Shown one piece after another: positions 8,590 to 60,412 of a DNA stretch of 64,000 bases (position 1 is its first letter; each line of letters begins with the position of its first letter). Origin of the DNA: Alkalimarinus coralli (lineage in GTDB: Bacteria; Pseudomonadota; Gammaproteobacteria; Pseudomonadales; Oleiphilaceae); NCBI RefSeq assembly GCF_023650515.1, contig NZ_CP096016.1, positions 738,513 to 802,512 of the forward strand, given 5' to 3'. The position numbers were made by a program, and so were the translations under genes. The notes under the pieces were generated by a model. It was not told where the DNA came from. It saw only the letters and a list, made by a program, of their open reading frames with translations, and made no database searches.

Positions 8590-9346
8590 CGTTAGCAATC
8601 AAAACCCTCAGATGAATTTGGCAATTGTAGGCGGGCAGAAGTGTGGTACAACAGCGTTGGCCAACTTTATTGCTCAGCACCCTGATATTTTTGTCGTGAA
8701 CGGTAAGGAAGGCCATATATTTGATGCGCCCGACATTGACTCACTTTCGCTCGCAGATATTCAGGCGAGGTATAAACTAATAATGGGGGGTTATAAGGGT
8801 GAAAGGTGGGTGTGTGATGCCACGCCAATCTATGCGTATTGGCAAGATATCCCAGCTAGATTAGTCGCGTATAATCCAAACATTAAAGTTATTTTCCTGA
8901 CTAGAGACCCTGTTGACCGAGCGGTTTCTCATTACTTCATGGAAAAAAACAGAGGTGATGAAACATTAAGTATTCTGCGCGCCTTTTTATCTGAAAGGAA
9001 ACGGCTTCTTAATAGCCGGGGAGATAAGGGGTGGGAGTCATCATGGCGACATCACTCTTATCTAGACAGGGGTAGGTATAACGCACAGATTGAAAACCTA
9101 AAGCGTAGTTTAGCCACTGAAAATATCTTGATAATGACGAATCGTGAGCTTCGCCATCAGCAACAGCAAGCGCTAGCGCGTGTGTTTTCATTTCTAGGGG
9201 TTAATAGCATACAGGTGCCTGAGAAAGACGTTTTTGAAGGGCGATATAACACAGATAAATTGGCTGTTAAGATTGCTCGATGGTATGCATCATTTAAACT
9301 AAAGCATGAACGAAAGCTGTTCAGATCTTTTGAAATAAATCGCTAG
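8582..9346 (+). CDS. Sulfotransferase, heparan/NodH-like
   Basis: This protein has the 5'-phosphosulfate loop GGQKCGTTAL near the N-terminus and the 3'-phosphate motif VIFLTRDPVDRAVSHYF in the middle, plus a GRYNAQIENL segment typical of heparan-sulfate-type and bacterial glycan sulfotransferases. ATG 8582 overlaps the wzt stop by 8 bases; an in-frame ATG at 8558 would add eight residues. Coupling to wzt suggests it acts on the same exported glycan, possibly as the terminal modification read by Wzt. The acceptor is unknown. It is distinct in sequence from the sulfotransferase at 5507. Confidence 0.85.
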   Translation: MDDVSNQNPQMNLAIVGGQKCGTTALANFIAQHPDIFVVNGKEGHIFDAPDIDSLSLADIQARYKLIMGGYKGERWVCDATPIYAYWQDIPARLVAYNPNIKVIFLTRDPVDRAVSHYFMEKNRGDETLSILRAFLSERKRLLNSRGDKGWESSWRHHSYLDRGRYNAQIENLKRSLATENILIMTNRELRHQQQQALARVFSFLGVNSIQVPEKDVFEGRYNTDKLAVKIARWYASFKLKHERKLFRSFEINR

Positions 9347-9381
9347 GCTCTGCCACTATACGGTATTAAAACCTGTTAGTA

Positions 9382-9542
9382 GAGAGTTTTGCACGACGAC
9401 TGCGCTTACAAATACAGCGTTAAAAAATGACTCAAAATGATGCGCTCTCCTGGGTCGGGCGGGACTTATAGGCCATAAACTGCGCTTTTTCGTCATGTTT
9501 TGCCTTGTCTTTGATTTGCTCATAACGTCGTGCAAAGCTCTC
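9382..9542. mobile_element. 161-bp MITE-like element, copy 1
   Basis: A non-coding element with terminal inverted repeats GAGAGTTTTGCACGAC and GTCGTGCAAAGCTCTC (one mismatch over 16 bases). A perfect 5-bp direct repeat TAGTA flanks it at 9377-9381 and 9543-9547, as expected of a target-site duplication. It is the same length as the copy at 59364-59524 and aligns to it without gaps, with about 17 differences counted by hand. It has no transposase, so it must be moved in trans. It fills most of the gap between the sulfotransferase gene and the 1081-residue fusion gene, ending 41 bases before that gene's GTG start, where it may affect transcription. Confidence 0.85.
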
Positions 9543-9583
9543 TAGTAGTGAATTCAAGTTGTATTTGGTAAAAGGACAAAAGA

Positions 9584-12500
9584 GTGTCAACAGAAAAAAG
9601 TACAAAGATTGACAGTACAAAAAATAGCGGTACAAAAAACAAAAAACAAGCTGTGTTAGTGCTGGGTATGCACCGATCTGGCACGAGCGCATTTAGTCGG
9701 GCGGTAAAAACATTAGGCTATAGTGTCGGTAATAATCTCATGCCGGCGAGTGAGGATAATCAAAAAGGTTACTGGGAAGATATGGGGATTGTAACCCTGA
9801 ATGAAGCGCTTCTTTCTAAATGTCATGCCGCGTGGGATAGGCCTGGTGTGTTACGGGGCTCGGCGCTAATATCTGCCCAAATAGCTGGACACAAAGATGA
9901 GATTCGTGCGCTTATCTCTAAAAGCTTCCCCAAAAAAAATCGAATTGCCATTAAAGACCCCCGAATTTCACTACTTTCGCCTATTTGGCGTGAATGCTTA
10001 AAAGATGCCGGGTTTTCAACTAAAACGATTTTATGTTTACGCCACCCGCAAGCGGTTGCTAACTCACTCAATACCCGAGATCATTTTAGCGACTTAAAAT
10101 CTTACCATTTGTGGTACCACTATAACTTGGCGCTATTAGAGCAAGCAGTCGATGATGTATTAGTGGTTAGTTATGAAAATTTACTCAAAAATCCTGAGTC
10201 TGAACTAAAGAGGATAGGGGCGTTTCTAGCGCTCGACCCAGATGAGTGGAGCGCTGAAACCAGTAAAGAAGTAAACGCTTACTGTAGGGAATTTATTGAT
10301 AGTGATTTATGTCGTGCTGATGACGATATTAGCGAACGCTTTGCAAACGCACCGGCTTATCTTACTGCCTTCTATGAGGCGTTGAAAAAATATGATTCGG
10401 TTCCAAAACTTAAAGCCGAACAAATCAAGGCTGTTTTACACGCCTCGGCTAAATTTGAGGGTGATCGGCAGCTGCAAAATGAGCTTTATTTGCTTCATGA
10501 CGAGCTGAACGAAAAAGGGGAGGCGATAAAACATTATTGTGATGAGTTGCAGGACGCAGAAGCGAAAATCTTCTCAGCGATAGATATTCGTAACCAGACC
10601 GCTGAAGCAAATGCCGGACTTAGAGAGGCTAACGATTCACTCAAGGCGCTGAATCTAAGTCTGCAAAATCAGCAAAAAGTTCTGCAATCAACTATTCATG
10701 AGAACCAGCAACAACATCAGGCTGATGCTCAACAACACCAAAAAGAGATCGATGAAAAAGTGGCTGAACTCGGCCGTTTAACTCAAACCATTGCTGATCA
10801 GCAACAGACTAATCAGGCGCTACAACAGCAGCTGAAGATATATCATGAATCAACTTCCTGGCGAGTCACCGAACCATTGAGGGCTTTGACTGTAAACGCA
10901 AGAAATATAAAACTGGCTGTACGGAGTGCCTTCAGCTTTGTTAGGTATTATGGTTTGGCTCAGCTCTTTGCTAATGTCATGAGAATTTGGCGTCAGGAAG
11001 GGGTTCTGGGTATAAAGTACAGGCTTAAGTTCGGCCCGGCACAAACCCGTTCATCGTCGGTGCCTGTCGTGGCCGCTTCTGCAACGGGCTTCGGCACTTT
11101 TCAACCTGCTTTTACCGGATCTGCCGCCATTGTAAAGTCAGATGAAGGCTATTCATTGGCGACTTCTTCGGCTGGGTATACCTATATCCCTCCCAGAAAA
11201 CCAGCCAATATGATGGAAATAATTGGCGATAAATCAGCCGCACCGTTGTTTTCAATCGTGGTACCGCTTTACAATACGCCATTAGATTTATTAGAAAAAA
11301 TGATAGGGTCAGTAGAGTCCCAGTGGTATCCGCATTGGCAGTTAATTTTAGCAGACGATGCCAGTCCTTCAGCTAGTGTTAAAGATTACTTAAAAAATAT
11401 CACCCACCCATCAATAGAACTACTGTATCTTGAAGAAAATCAGGGGATTGCCGGTGCAACTAACGCTGCTATAGATCAGGCGCGTGGTGATTATATAGTG
11501 TTACTTGATCATGATGATGAACTGACGGATGACTGCTTATTTGAGTTAGCGAAGTGTATAAAACGAGATAATCCTGATTTTATTTACAGCGATGAAGATA
11601 AAATAGACCCTGATGGGAGTTTTACTCAACCGCACTTTAAACCAGGTTGGTCACCCGATACGATGATGAGCACAATGTATACTTGCCATGTGGCATGCAT
11701 ACGCAAAAGCTTATTAAATGAAGTTGGGGGATTACGTTCGCAATATGATGGTTGTCAAGACTGGGATTTAGTATTACGCATTACCGAAGCGACGAACCGA
11801 ATAAGTCATATTCCCAAGGTTTTGTATCATTGGAGAATAATTCCTGCCTCAATAGCAGCTGATCTTTCGGCTAAGCCTTATGCATTAGAAGCTTCAAAGA
11901 ACGTTCGGCTTGATGCGTTGAAACGCCGAGGGCTTATTGGAGAGTTGGAAGCCGTCTCTCAGGTTGATGGTTATTTTAATGTGGTTTATGACCTTCAAAA
12001 CGAACCGCTTATCTCCATCATTATTCCAACAAGAGATAATGTGAAGGTATTGCGCCGTTGTATTGAATCCATATTTAAGAAAAGTAGTTATCGAAGCTTC
12101 GAAATTATCATTCTTGATAACGGTTCTATTGAAAAAGAATGTTTAGACTACTTTGAAGAAGTAAGTCAACAAGAAGATGTGTCGGTTATAAGGCATGATG
12201 CTCCGTTTAATTTTTCTGAACTTAATAATATTGGTGCACAAGAGGCAAAGGGAGAGTTACTTCTTTTCTTAAATGATGACACAGAAGTTATTAGTGCAGA
12301 CTGGCTGGAACGAATGGGAGGATATGCTCAGCTTTCGCATATTGGTGCTGTTGGTGCAAAATTACTTTACCCTGAGGGCAATAAAATACAGCATGCTGGA
12401 GTGCTAAATTTACAAGACGGGCCAGGGCACGCTTTTATAAGGCAAGATTGCGATACACCGGGATATTATATGCGGAATTTACTGGAATATAATTGGTTAG

Positions 12501-12829
12501 CGGTAACAGGCGCTTGTTTAATGATGGAAGCAAAGAAGTTTCATTCCGTTGGCACCTTTAATGAAGCATTCCCCGTTGCCTATAATGATGTTGACCTTTG
12601 TATGCGTCTATGTGATCAAGGTTTATTTAATGTTGTCTGTCAGTCTGTGCGTTTGACCCATTATGAGTCTGTAAGCAGAGGAATAGATAATATAGATCCT
12701 GAAAAAGTTGCCAGGCTTAAACGAGAGCTGCAGGCTTTAAATGAGGCTCATCCTCAGTATTTCCAATATGATCCATTTTATAGTGTCAATTTACACCCTA
12801 ATGGCATTAATTTTGAGGTGCCACAATGA
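9584..12829 (+). CDS. Fusion: sulfotransferase-like domain, coiled coil, two GT2 glycosyltransferase domains
   Basis: A 1081-residue multidomain protein starting with GTG after AAAGGAC. Residues about 20-260 carry a sulfotransferase-type P-loop (LVLGMHRSGTSAF) and CLRHPQAVANSL. Residues about 290-420 are a Q/E-rich coiled coil ending in the STSWRVTEPLRAL motif often found before GT2 domains in rhamnan synthesis proteins. GT2 domain A starts near 556 (FSIVVPLYNTP, LLDHDDEL near 640). GT2 domain B starts near 809 (ISIIIPTRDNV, LNDDTEV near 896, late CMRL). The two GT2 domains would add two sugars or alternate linkages; the first domain could sulfate or bind the chain. The stop overlaps the next start by 4 bases. 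Specificities are not inferable. Confidence 0.85.
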   Translation: MSTEKSTKIDSTKNSGTKNKKQAVLVLGMHRSGTSAFSRAVKTLGYSVGNNLMPASEDNQKGYWEDMGIVTLNEALLSKCHAAWDRPGVLRGSALISAQIAGHKDEIRALISKSFPKKNRIAIKDPRISLLSPIWRECLKDAGFSTKTILCLRHPQAVANSLNTRDHFSDLKSYHLWYHYNLALLEQAVDDVLVVSYENLLKNPESELKRIGAFLALDPDEWSAETSKEVNAYCREFIDSDLCRADDDISERFANAPAYLTAFYEALKKYDSVPKLKAEQIKAVLHASAKFEGDRQLQNELYLLHDELNEKGEAIKHYCDELQDAEAKIFSAIDIRNQTAEANAGLREANDSLKALNLSLQNQQKVLQSTIHENQQQHQADAQQHQKEIDEKVAELGRLTQTIADQQQTNQALQQQLKIYHESTSWRVTEPLRALTVNARNIKLAVRSAFSFVRYYGLAQLFANVMRIWRQEGVLGIKYRLKFGPAQTRSSSVPVVAASATGFGTFQPAFTGSAAIVKSDEGYSLATSSAGYTYIPPRKPANMMEIIGDKSAAPLFSIVVPLYNTPLDLLEKMIGSVESQWYPHWQLILADDASPSASVKDYLKNITHPSIELLYLEENQGIAGATNAAIDQARGDYIVLLDHDDELTDDCLFELAKCIKRDNPDFIYSDEDKIDPDGSFTQPHFKPGWSPDTMMSTMYTCHVACIRKSLLNEVGGLRSQYDGCQDWDLVLRITEATNRISHIPKVLYHWRIIPASIAADLSAKPYALEASKNVRLDALKRRGLIGELEAVSQVDGYFNVVYDLQNEPLISIIIPTRDNVKVLRRCIESIFKKSSYRSFEIIILDNGSIEKECLDYFEEVSQQEDVSVIRHDAPFNFSELNNIGAQEAKGELLLFLNDDTEVISADWLERMGGYAQLSHIGAVGAKLLYPEGNKIQHAGVLNLQDGPGHAFIRQDCDTPGYYMRNLLEYNWLAVTGACLMMEAKKFHSVGTFNEAFPVAYNDVDLCMRLCDQGLFNVVCQSVRLTHYESVSRGIDNIDPEKVARLKRELQALNEAHPQYFQYDPFYSVNLHPNGINFEVPQ

Positions 12830-54361: not shown

Positions 54362-54821
54362 TTTTGTCTCTAAATATCAAAGTCATTGGTATGCCAAACT
54401 AGGTAGTTGACCCCCATTGGGTTTTCAAGATTATCAGTGCTAAATTGAAGGTTGTCGACTAATTAAAATGGCGTTCCCTATCATCACGCAGGGTATTTTA
54501 CCCTGTTGTGTGTGATATGAGAAATGATCTCATTTATTAGTTGGATATTTAATATTTGGCTTCTGTTTAGGCGCTTTATATGGTATAAAGCGCCGCTCTA
54601 TTCAATAACTGTTTAAAGATGTATTTGAGAATAAGTAAAACGGTTCTCAGGTTTACCTTAAATAATATTGTTAGAGCAAAATTCGCACATATGCCGACAC
54701 GTTGTTCTGGGTGCTCGTGGTGATTGAAGCGCTACCATTGATGGGGTGTTTGATCCTTAAGAGAGTTGAATGATGGGGCATGTGGAGGTCTAACCCAATT
54801 AATAGTTAAGGAATTTTTATA
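54362..54821. promoter_or_regulatory. map-rpsB divergent regulatory region with a 25-base palindrome
   Basis: A 460-base gap without a gene. It holds promoters for map and rpsB and the rpsB leader, where ribosomal protein S2 is known to repress its own operon in gammaproteobacteria. A perfect 11-bp inverted repeat around a 3-base centre (GGCGCTTTATA-TGG-TATAAAGCGCC, 54570-54594) is present, plus a weaker pair TGAGAA/TTCTCA further right. The rpsB ribosome site is AAGGAA near 54809. Confidence 0.6.
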
Positions 54822-58560: not shown

Positions 58561-59319
58561 ATGACAGAAAGCGTAACCGCCGATATACCCACTTCAGCTG
58601 CAGATAAGCCCCGTCATGTGGCTATTATCATGGATGGCAATAACCGCTGGGCGAAAAAGAAAAAGTTATTAGGTGTCTCTGGGCATAAAGCAGGCGTTGA
58701 TGCGGTGCGGGCTGTTGTTGAAACCTGTGTGGAAGAAGGCATTGAAGCGTTAACGCTATTTGCATTTAGCAGCGAGAATTGGCGCCGGCCAGCCGACGAA
58801 GTCTCTGCATTGATGAAGCTGTTTTTACTGGCGCTTCAGAGAGAAGTTAAGAAACTACATAAAAACAATATCCGTCTGCGAATAATTGGTGACAGGAGTA
58901 AATTTAGTCCTATTCTCCAGGAGCATATGGAAAAAGCTGAAACGTTAACGGCTAACAATACGCGGTTAACACTGGTGATTGCAGCCAATTACGGTGGTCA
59001 CTGGGATATTACGCAAGCCACACAGAAAATTGCGGGAATGGTTGAGGGCGGCGAATTGAGCGCGGCAGATGTCAATGATGACCTGATTCAGAGCCATCTG
59101 TCTTTAGGTGACCTTCCCATGCCTGACTTATGTATAAGAACCGCTGGCGAACAACGTATTAGTAACTTTATGTTATGGCAGTTTGCCTACACTGAGCTTT
59201 ATTTCTCAGAGGTCTACTGGCCGGATTTTCAGCATGAGGAAATGCGCAAGGCTCTTGCGGCTTATTCAACACGACAGCGCAGATTTGGTCAAACGGATGA
59301 CCAGATCAAAAAAGCTTAA
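58561..59319 (+). CDS. uppS: Undecaprenyl diphosphate synthase
   Basis: A 252-residue cis-prenyltransferase. The catalytic HVAIIMDGNNRWAKKK (Asp25) is near the start, followed by LTLFAFSSENWRRP, IAANYGGHWDI and the C-terminal DLCIRTAGEQRISNFMLWQFAYTELYF. It makes the C55 lipid carrier precursor used by peptidoglycan and by all polysaccharide assembly encoded at 4.5-32.6 kb. The gene is separated from cdsA by a MITE insertion. Confidence 0.97.
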   Translation: MTESVTADIPTSAADKPRHVAIIMDGNNRWAKKKKLLGVSGHKAGVDAVRAVVETCVEEGIEALTLFAFSSENWRRPADEVSALMKLFLLALQREVKKLHKNNIRLRIIGDRSKFSPILQEHMEKAETLTANNTRLTLVIAANYGGHWDITQATQKIAGMVEGGELSAADVNDDLIQSHLSLGDLPMPDLCIRTAGEQRISNFMLWQFAYTELYFSEVYWPDFQHEEMRKALAAYSTRQRRFGQTDDQIKKA

Positions 59320-59363
59320 TTGGTTTGGGGCTAGTATGTCTCTGCTTATGCAAAATATAAGAA

Positions 59364-59524
59364 GAGACCTTTGCACGACTACTGCGCTTACAAATACAGC
59401 GTTAAAAAATGACTCAAAATTGTGCGCTCTCCTGGGTCGACCGGGACTTATTACTCATAAACTGCGCTTTTTCTTCATTTTTTGCCTTGTCTTTGCTTCG
59501 CTCGTAACGTCGTGCAAAGGTCTC
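59364..59524. mobile_element. 161-bp MITE-like element, copy 2
   Basis: A non-coding element with perfect 16-bp terminal inverted repeats GAGACCTTTGCACGAC and GTCGTGCAAAGGTCTC. It is flanked by a perfect 5-bp direct repeat AAGAA (59359-59363 and 59525-59529). It has the same length as copy 1 (9382-9542) with conserved internal blocks such as TACAAATACAGCGTTAAAAA and GCGCTCTCCTGGGTCG. Each copy also contains ACTGCGCTT twice, 80 bases apart. It lies inside the uppS-cdsA gap of an otherwise highly conserved operon, so read-through transcripts carry it and could fold it back through its ends. Confidence 0.9.
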
Positions 59525-59581
59525 AAGAACTTTAAAATTTACCCCAATAGCGTCGCTATTGATAATAAAGTGATATGAACT

Positions 59582-60412
59582 GTGCTTAAACAACGGATTA
59601 TTACCGGATTAATTCTCGCGCCTATTGCTGTTGGTGGGATCTTCTTTTTACCCCCTGTCGAATTCTCTTGGTTTATTGGAATCATTATTGCCATTGGTGG
59701 CTGGGAGTGGGCTAACCTGGCGGGCTATAGTCGGCAGGTAGAGCGACTTGGTTATGCGGGCCTCATTGCACTTCTTCTATATCTTTCGACGTTTGTTAAC
59801 TCTACCTATGTACTTGGGGGTAGTGTTGTTGGCTGGTTTGTCTCGCTTTACCTTATCTCTCAGTACCCAAATAAGAATTCGCTGTGGGCCTCTCGTTTGA
59901 GGCGACTGCTAATAGGCTTTTTTGTGCTTATTCCAGCGTGGAGTGGGCTTGTTGCCATTAGAAAAGCGGGCGTTTTGTCCTATGAAGGGCAGTTGGTCGA
60001 TGTGCGCTATTTGATCCTGTATATCATGTTTATCGTATGGGGGGCAGATGTTGGTGCGTATTTCTCCGGTAAAGCGTGGGGTAACAAAAAACTGGCACCT
60101 AATGTTTCTCCTGGCAAGTCGTGGGCGGGCGTATATGGAGGCCTTGCCACCACGGCATTGTTTGCATTAATTGCATCTTATATGCTGGGTATGTCACTTT
60201 TCGATATGTTTATTTTAATGGTCATTACATTAATTACCGGTATTTTTTCTGTAGTTGGTGACTTATTGGAAAGCATGCTAAAGCGGCATCGGGGGATAAA
60301 AGATAGCAGCCAGCTGTTGCCTGGGCATGGTGGTGTGCTAGATCGAATTGATAGCCTCACTGCTGCTGTTCCCGTATTAACCTTCCTTTTAATCCTTGCT
60401 GGCTGGTTTTAG
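59582..60412 (+). CDS. cdsA: Phosphatidate cytidylyltransferase
   Basis: A 276-residue membrane protein with about eight hydrophobic segments, a GTG start, WGADVGAYFSGKAWGNKKLAPNVSPGKSWAG and the C-terminal CdsA signature SVVGDLLESMLKRHRGIKDSSQLLPGHGGVLDRIDSL. It makes CDP-diacylglycerol for phospholipid synthesis. The conserved operon place after uppS supports the call. Confidence 0.97.
   Translation: MLKQRIITGLILAPIAVGGIFFLPPVEFSWFIGIIIAIGGWEWANLAGYSRQVERLGYAGLIALLLYLSTFVNSTYVLGGSVVGWFVSLYLISQYPNKNSLWASRLRRLLIGFFVLIPAWSGLVAIRKAGVLSYEGQLVDVRYLILYIMFIVWGADVGAYFSGKAWGNKKLAPNVSPGKSWAGVYGGLATTALFALIASYMLGMSLFDMFILMVITLITGIFSVVGDLLESMLKRHRGIKDSSQLLPGHGGVLDRIDSLTAAVPVLTFLLILAGWF

Follow-up and report, generated by a model that had tools for sequence, protein, structure and literature searches.

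A mobile MITE family of Alkalimarinus coralli carries a paired hairpin core that recurs behind different ends across a bacterial class

Our analysis describes a family of MITEs in Alkalimarinus coralli that has moved within the genus, and whose interior is a conserved, paired hairpin core placed behind varied ends in many genomes of the bacterial class of the host. MITEs are usually taken as IS remnants whose identity resides in their ends; here the ends vary while the middle persists, in many genomes of one bacterial class, a pattern that hints at one old hairpin surviving by borrowed ends. If this reading is right, many small repeats that are now viewed separately are one family, with ERIC perhaps among them, and the effect of a conserved hairpin on a mobile element becomes open to direct test.

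Copies, forms and movement in the host genome

The window, by which we mean the whole stretch of 64,000 bases analysed (738513-802512 of the single 4,826,299-base contig of the host genome), contains two copies of the element, both of a 161-bp form and both on the plus strand. Copy 1 (9382..9542), identified in the sequence and in a genome-wide census, lies between two TAGTA target duplications (9377..9381 and 9543..9547) and is bounded by 16-bp inverted ends, GAGAGTTTTGCACGACG on the left (9382..9397, plus strand) and the complement of CGTCGTGCAAAGCTCTC on the right (9527..9542, minus strand), which differ by one mismatch and are also recovered by a genome-wide count of ends. Copy 2 (59364..59524) is of equal length, differs from copy 1 at exactly 17 positions without gaps, and is flanked on both sides by AAGAA (59359..59363 and 59525..59529), a duplication seen in the sequence and in the comparison with congeners. 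The initial annotation, which had described both copies and counted about 17 differences between them, is borne out in these points by the sequence, as is its remark that the element lacks coding capacity, 161 bp being too short for a transposase. Its distance of 41 bases from the end of copy 1 to the downstream gene (9584..12829, plus strand; putatively named there a sulfotransferase-GT fusion) also agrees with the GTG at 9584, but its suggestion that copy 1 could supply the promoter of that gene finds no counterpart in the sequence around the copy, where 9330-9620 holds no promoter-like or terminator-like match. Copy 2 is preceded by a gene at 58561..59319 and followed by another at 59582..60412, both on the plus strand, which by their sequence we take to be uppS-like and cdsA-like. 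Elsewhere in the window, a t44 RNA match of 64 bits (54666-54794) lies upstream of an rpsB-like gene.

BLAST with the element against the host genome gave at least 40 matches scored among 128 candidates. The 16-base family end, with up to two mismatches, occurs 93 times in forward and 95 times in reverse orientation, compared with 1 and 0 for the reversed control, and we therefore put the number of copies at roughly 90, mainly of 140 or 161 bp. The census comprised 92 loci (20 from BLAST and 72 fetched), and in 82 of them the ends could be paired at 60 bp or more; forty of these copies measure 140 bp and twenty-four 161 bp, the longer form having an extra central stretch that contains a near-palindrome. 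One pairing among the 82, of 279 bp at L304, is probably false, as a closer look gives a 37-bp form. The forty 140-bp copies are close to one another, with a median nearest-neighbour identity of 0.979 and a maximum of 1.000. Four of the ten loci unpaired at this length are mini forms (L287, 39 bp; L301, 50 bp; L315, 47 bp; L333, 50 bp), and the other six are single ends or a chance pair. Exact 5-bp duplications surround the mini forms L287 and L333, and the congener G002 has a 39-bp form with AAACT on either side (L075). The 39-bp form, present in two species, resembles a deletion between CTTTGC repeats. Inserted, partly palindromic stretches like that of the 161-bp form were noticed by eye at L102, L381, L387 and L390, in several genomes. 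The whole element matched nothing in the plasmid and phage collections.

Movement of the element is shown by its duplications and by empty sites. An exact 5-bp repeat flanks 51 of the 82 end-paired copies, where about 0.1 would be expected; a further 17 have a 5-bp duplication with one mismatch, and the remaining 14 have two or more. Flanking repeats of other lengths are few by comparison (2 bp, 14 copies against 6 expected; 3 bp, 2 against 1.6; 4 bp, 1 against 0.4; 6 bp, 2). The exact duplications are AT-bounded, with A or T as the first base in 49 of the 51 and as the last base in 42. Copy 2 is missing from the uppS-cdsA spacer in all four congeners: against the 166 bp expected for the element plus its duplication, the spacer in the BLAST alignments is shorter by 165 bp in G001 and by 163 bp in both G002 and G003, and these three share the host's sequence on the right-hand side of the insertion, while the spacer of G004 is shorter by 77 bp and holds other sequence. 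By eye, this G004 spacer (L264, L270) is different and repeat-like. The reading of the two copies as products of true transposition thus stands, with the further copies and separate duplications that a genome-wide BLAST had been expected to reveal. The family is short, has terminal inverted repeats and 5-bp duplications, occupies many unrelated sites and is absent from orthologous ones, as is characteristic of MITEs.

A conserved core behind different ends

Among 58 relatives searched, 13 (host included) gave matches, which outside the genus fell mostly on the interior of the element; the non-genus interior matches that we inspected have ends that differ from those of the two copies in the window. 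An ungapped alignment of 120 columns accommodates seven elements, of which two come from the host, and both partners have changed in 19 of its 45 pairs. With a threshold of E 1e-4 and no more than nine matches counted per genome, the covariance model R1 finds the core in 129 of the 369 class genomes and in 108 of 272 genera. In the window, with default filters, its only matches are the two copies, whose cores lie on the plus strand at 9392..9532 (76.3 bits, E 3.6e-18) and 59374..59514 (88.2 bits, E 2.1e-21). A scan of genome contigs with the core pattern returned at least 119 stretches; among the 80 listed, the carriers include many Pseudomonas, Halomonas and its relatives, Salinicola, Chromohalobacter, Marinomonas, Thiotrichaceae, Chromatiales, Ectothiorhodospiraceae, Granulosicoccaceae, Methylococcales, Nitrosomonadales, Gallionella and one Desulfobacteraceae assembly. 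Three viral contigs also contain the pattern.

The pairing of the core is maintained as its sequence changes. Across 33 aligned cores, 93.3% of cells pair compared with 81.1% after shuffling, both partners have changed in 14 of 28 pairs compared with 9.5, and the cells changed on both sides number 106 compared with 24.5 in shuffles, which ignore relatedness, and at most 22 with the partner slid, a comparison that keeps relatedness but favours a structure drawn from the same sequences. The length is nearly constant: of 35 full-length matches, all selected by the model, 34 span 115-122 bases and the remaining one 172. Alignment A5 excludes L102 and an additional partial match at L107, and A6 excludes L121 as well. 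Folded as DNA, the 140-bp form of the host has a z of -7.8, and elements L057, L055 and L056 reach -6.8, -5.4 and -4.4, while the fold of L053 barely beats its shuffles (z -1.4, 17 of 200 shuffles folding as well). L057, which is also 140 bp long and comes from another family, gives a bracket string nearly identical to that of the host form, while the outer 16 bases of the two differ. Copy 1 folded as RNA has a z of -4.5.

As an alternative to transposition, the initial annotation had named a structured segment conserved in the same place in relatives; the structure is indeed present, as a class-wide core, but the constancy of place is not, and transposition and a structured segment both hold because the core is conserved in the class at different places. 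The curated models of Rfam give no match to the element. Literature searches by words and by sequence string, covering open papers and, for strings, those in which the letters are printed, returned no description of the core; PMC5864184 is unrelated to it.

The ends were typed at 83 of 122 loci (the 80 listed and the three viral) by loose, hand-made patterns, which gave eight types with 34, 8, 8, 7, 4, 4, 2 and 1 members and left 15 loci unclassified; the end type of the window's two copies is absent among them. A likely exchange of ends is illustrated within Pseudomonas alcaliphila. Its locus L149, with the left end CTAGCAGGTGTTGAAAAAC, is unclassified by the script and of the first, CTAGCAGG type by eye, and inside the ends it is 91.7% identical to L206, which has the unlike end GGGCGCCTCT, compared with 88.4% to L164, also of the CTAGCAGG type; L164 and L206, again with unlike ends, are 86.0% identical. 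Drawn from a single genome and from a crude, ungapped measure of identity, this comparison serves as an example and not as a rate.

Two of the end types lead to the IS5 family. The first type matches plasmids of P. putida over 21 of 21 bases, and in NZ_MN961670.1 the sequence CTAGCAGGCCGTTGAAAAACT forms the outer boundary of an element whose annotation reads IS5-like, ISPst12 family; this element is 1339 bp long, its second end having two mismatches. This 21-bp end of ISPst12 is the end of the core-bearing Pseudomonas elements; unlike the MITE, ISPst12 carries a transposase, and its end type is not that of the window's two copies. For a few dozen bases inside its ends we saw, by eye, no core-like sequence. 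Seven Bradyrhizobium plasmids likewise contain matches to the ISPst12-type end, which in the one examined (L368) lies beside nif genes. The second end type matches at 19 of 20 bases beside an IS5-family transposase gene of Methylomonas, and all 20 of 20 bases recur in a plasmid of Microbulbifer, where a short gene close by bears the annotation transposase; the other end of this type was found in neither of the two loci. Against plasmids, the 16-base end of the MITE family and the end queries GAGACCTTTGCACGAC, GAGAGGGTGTTTACAAAAT and GGGCACCTCTAAAAAC gave no match, all being short queries near the detection limit.

The target duplications of IS5 subgroups mostly differ in length from 5 bp. The assignment of the element to the IS5 family, offered as a guess in the initial annotation, is plausible, since the family consensus agrees over 12 bases with the end of an IS5-family element, ISNme1, and another end type of the core belongs to ISPst12. 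The end of ISNme1 is printed as GAGACCTTTGCAAAA in PMC4596501; the consensus and copy 2 both begin with bases that equal it at 12 of 12, and copy 1 differs at two positions. Among IS5-family MITEs, the ATR repeats of Neisseria, which have ISNme1 ends, share with the consensus its first 12 bases, GAGACCTTTGCA. By description, the interior of ATR is AT-rich and that of BrickBuilt in Porphyromonas is a 23-nt minisatellite, in contrast to the class-wide hairpin core of the MITE studied here.

The end type of the window's two copies is in turn joined to more than one interior. An exact GAGACCTTTGCACGA occurs in 15 of 390 genomes of the order, host included, with 40 + 45 matches in G686 and 8 + 5 in G525; some of the other matches stand alone within coding sequence or lack a partner. 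R2, applied to 17 of these loci, recognises eight at E 6.4e-7 or better and two at 0.018 and 0.15, and has no match at E 1 in the other seven, which include all five from G686. In G525, G486 and G432 this end type is thus joined to somewhat different cores, and in G686 it encloses interiors that R2 fails to recognise. G686 belongs to another family, and its loci L373, L386, L391, L393 and L395 have interiors of like length without an R2 match.

The transposase and the role of the core

The initial annotation had implied a trans-acting transposase elsewhere, to be sought in an IS with the same 16-bp ends. No transposase gene bounded by the ends of this MITE was found at the 14 PF01609 loci of the host genome, and PF13586 has no match there. 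Twelve of the 14 loci (L058-L069) are copies of one element with other ends, GAGGCTGTGAAAGTAT, whose open frame of 546 aa belongs to the DDE_Tnp_1 family; we presume this element to be IS1182-like. Each of the seven of its copies whose flanks were seen lies, by eye, within another palindromic repeat with a 3-base duplication. Inspection by eye of the listed ends of the host, about 100 out of 188, revealed no IS-sized pair of matching ends. In G179, Salinicola, the draft genomes of a Halomonas and of strain MFB021, and two Pseudomonas genomes, short pairs or single ends were all that could be seen by eye, and a third genome of the Pseudomonas group had no end match at all. The genes beside 158 loci form 16 clusters that recur at three or more loci, the largest at 7, and by eye none is transposase-like.

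On balance we think it somewhat more probable than not that the element is non-autonomous and of two parts, with replaceable IS5-type ends and a lasting core that, as folded DNA, aids transposition. The outer part would be a terminal inverted repeat of IS5 type, about 16 bp long and the substrate of an IS5-type transposase that would act in trans and cut AT-rich DNA with a stagger of 5 bp; this enzyme may now be absent, or may belong to another transposase family. The inner part is the conserved imperfect hairpin of about 120 bp, which would last as ends were replaced with the coming and going of transposases. Least certain is the last step, in which the core, folded as a single-strand hairpin or a cruciform, might bring the two ends together and might make the element a good substrate for any IS5-type transposase present. 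The mini forms without a core, with exact duplications at L287, L333 and L075, suggest that the core may be unneeded for movement, unless it was deleted later.

The main rival to a role of the DNA is that the core works as co-transcribed RNA, which folds, sets the stability or processing of mRNA, and is kept for that; this we consider possible, although rather doubtful. It accords with the strong covariation of the core, both in the seven elements and in the 33, and it has precedents: PMC2229807 and PMC10969869 describe effects on mRNA stability or processing exerted by ERIC copies of Yersinia and by the Correia/NEMIS repeats of Neisseria. When genes are called with a simple ORF criterion, the 82 end-paired copies divide into 46 with tandem neighbours, 23 with divergent and 6 with convergent ones, and 7 inside a called ORF, some of these near the ORF ends; the tandem and divergent settings suit a transcribed element. 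Orientation argues for DNA over sense RNA, because among the 33 of the 46 tandem-gene copies with known orientation 16 run along the genes and 17 against them, and the lack of an Rfam match also weighs against the RNA reading. Mismatches in the core are more often A-C than G-T (29 to 16 and 55 to 26, gappy rows of A7 left out), as they are in the host copies (61 to 40); this excess is compatible with wobble pairs on the minus strand and could be a mild hint towards selection on a minus-strand RNA. We favour a role of the folded DNA in transposition.

It is improbable that the element is an ordinary MITE whose interior is functionless, leftover IS DNA spread horizontally. Its size, ends and duplications would suit any MITE, but such a remnant sits poorly with the compensatory changes in the core, with the near-constant length of the model-selected matches and with one core behind eight end types, and the few dozen subterminal bases of ISPst12 showed, by eye, no likeness to the core. 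Least of all can we credit a two-way transcription terminator that renders insertions harmless, a reading suggested by an inner inverted repeat followed by a T run on the plus strand and dropped in view of the 6 of 82 convergent settings, the position of copy 2 between uppS and cdsA and the lack of a terminator-like match around copy 1.

Resemblance to ERIC and other intergenic repeats

The core resembles the ERIC (IRU, RU-1) repeats of enterobacteria, which are likewise intergenic, multicopy, imperfect palindromes of similar size; the tests of this kinship are mixed, and from sequence comparison it is suggestive. The likeness was first noticed with the ERIC primers, and ERIC copies were then taken from E. 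coli. Both repeats present the blocks CTCA, TCAYTTAC, loop, GTAARCT and GCCTT in the same order, and wherever an alignment scored, ERIC took the expected strand and register. In PMC2229807 ERIC is listed as measuring 127 bp with TA at its termini, whereas the MITE studied here has GAG ends.

Model searches bear on this in both directions. R1 has no match to the ERIC loci at E 10, and nhmmer with profile A6 found no ERIC locus at E 100, a threshold at which chance matches do appear. The best match of R2 in each of three ERIC loci is the exact centre of the repeat, at 9.8 bits and E 0.14 over 1.9 kb. R3, whose seed includes diverged members, was run on 51 kb of E. coli sequence; ERIC copies account for four of its five best matches there (14-14.6 bits, E 0.29-0.4), two of the four being the same pgk-fbaA repeat in two strains, and one chance match at 15.8 bits outscores them all.

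Full-length profile alignment to ERIC, made with the gappy rows of A7 left out, gives a z of 4.2 for A6, 2.2 for A7 and 5.8 for A8, and with all three profiles the expected strand wins. The value for A8 is flattered because that profile was assembled after the likeness had been seen, with the ERIC-like L108, L109, L111 and L118, and the value for A7 is if anything too low because this profile derives largely from a pattern with an invariant T at a position where ERIC carries C. The ERIC score was reached by 1, 4 and 0 of 200 dinucleotide shuffles for A6, A7 and A8, and by 0, 4 and 0 of 200 random E. coli windows; in a first A8 run it was reached by 0 of 150 shuffles and 0 of 150 random windows. 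A tentative extension, which we rate as possible and somewhat short of even, is that ERIC and the MITE family form one gammaproteobacterial superfamily, in which an old structured core would persist by exchanging ends among IS5-type transposases. If this is true, the unknown mobiliser of ERIC is to be sought among IS5-type enzymes.

REP/REPIN elements are structured intergenic repeats moved in trans with RAYT, and in this they are like the MITE described here. REPs are given as 20-40 bp in the abstract of PMC3733652, whereas the MITE copies are mainly of 140 and 161 bp and so lie well above the size of a REP.
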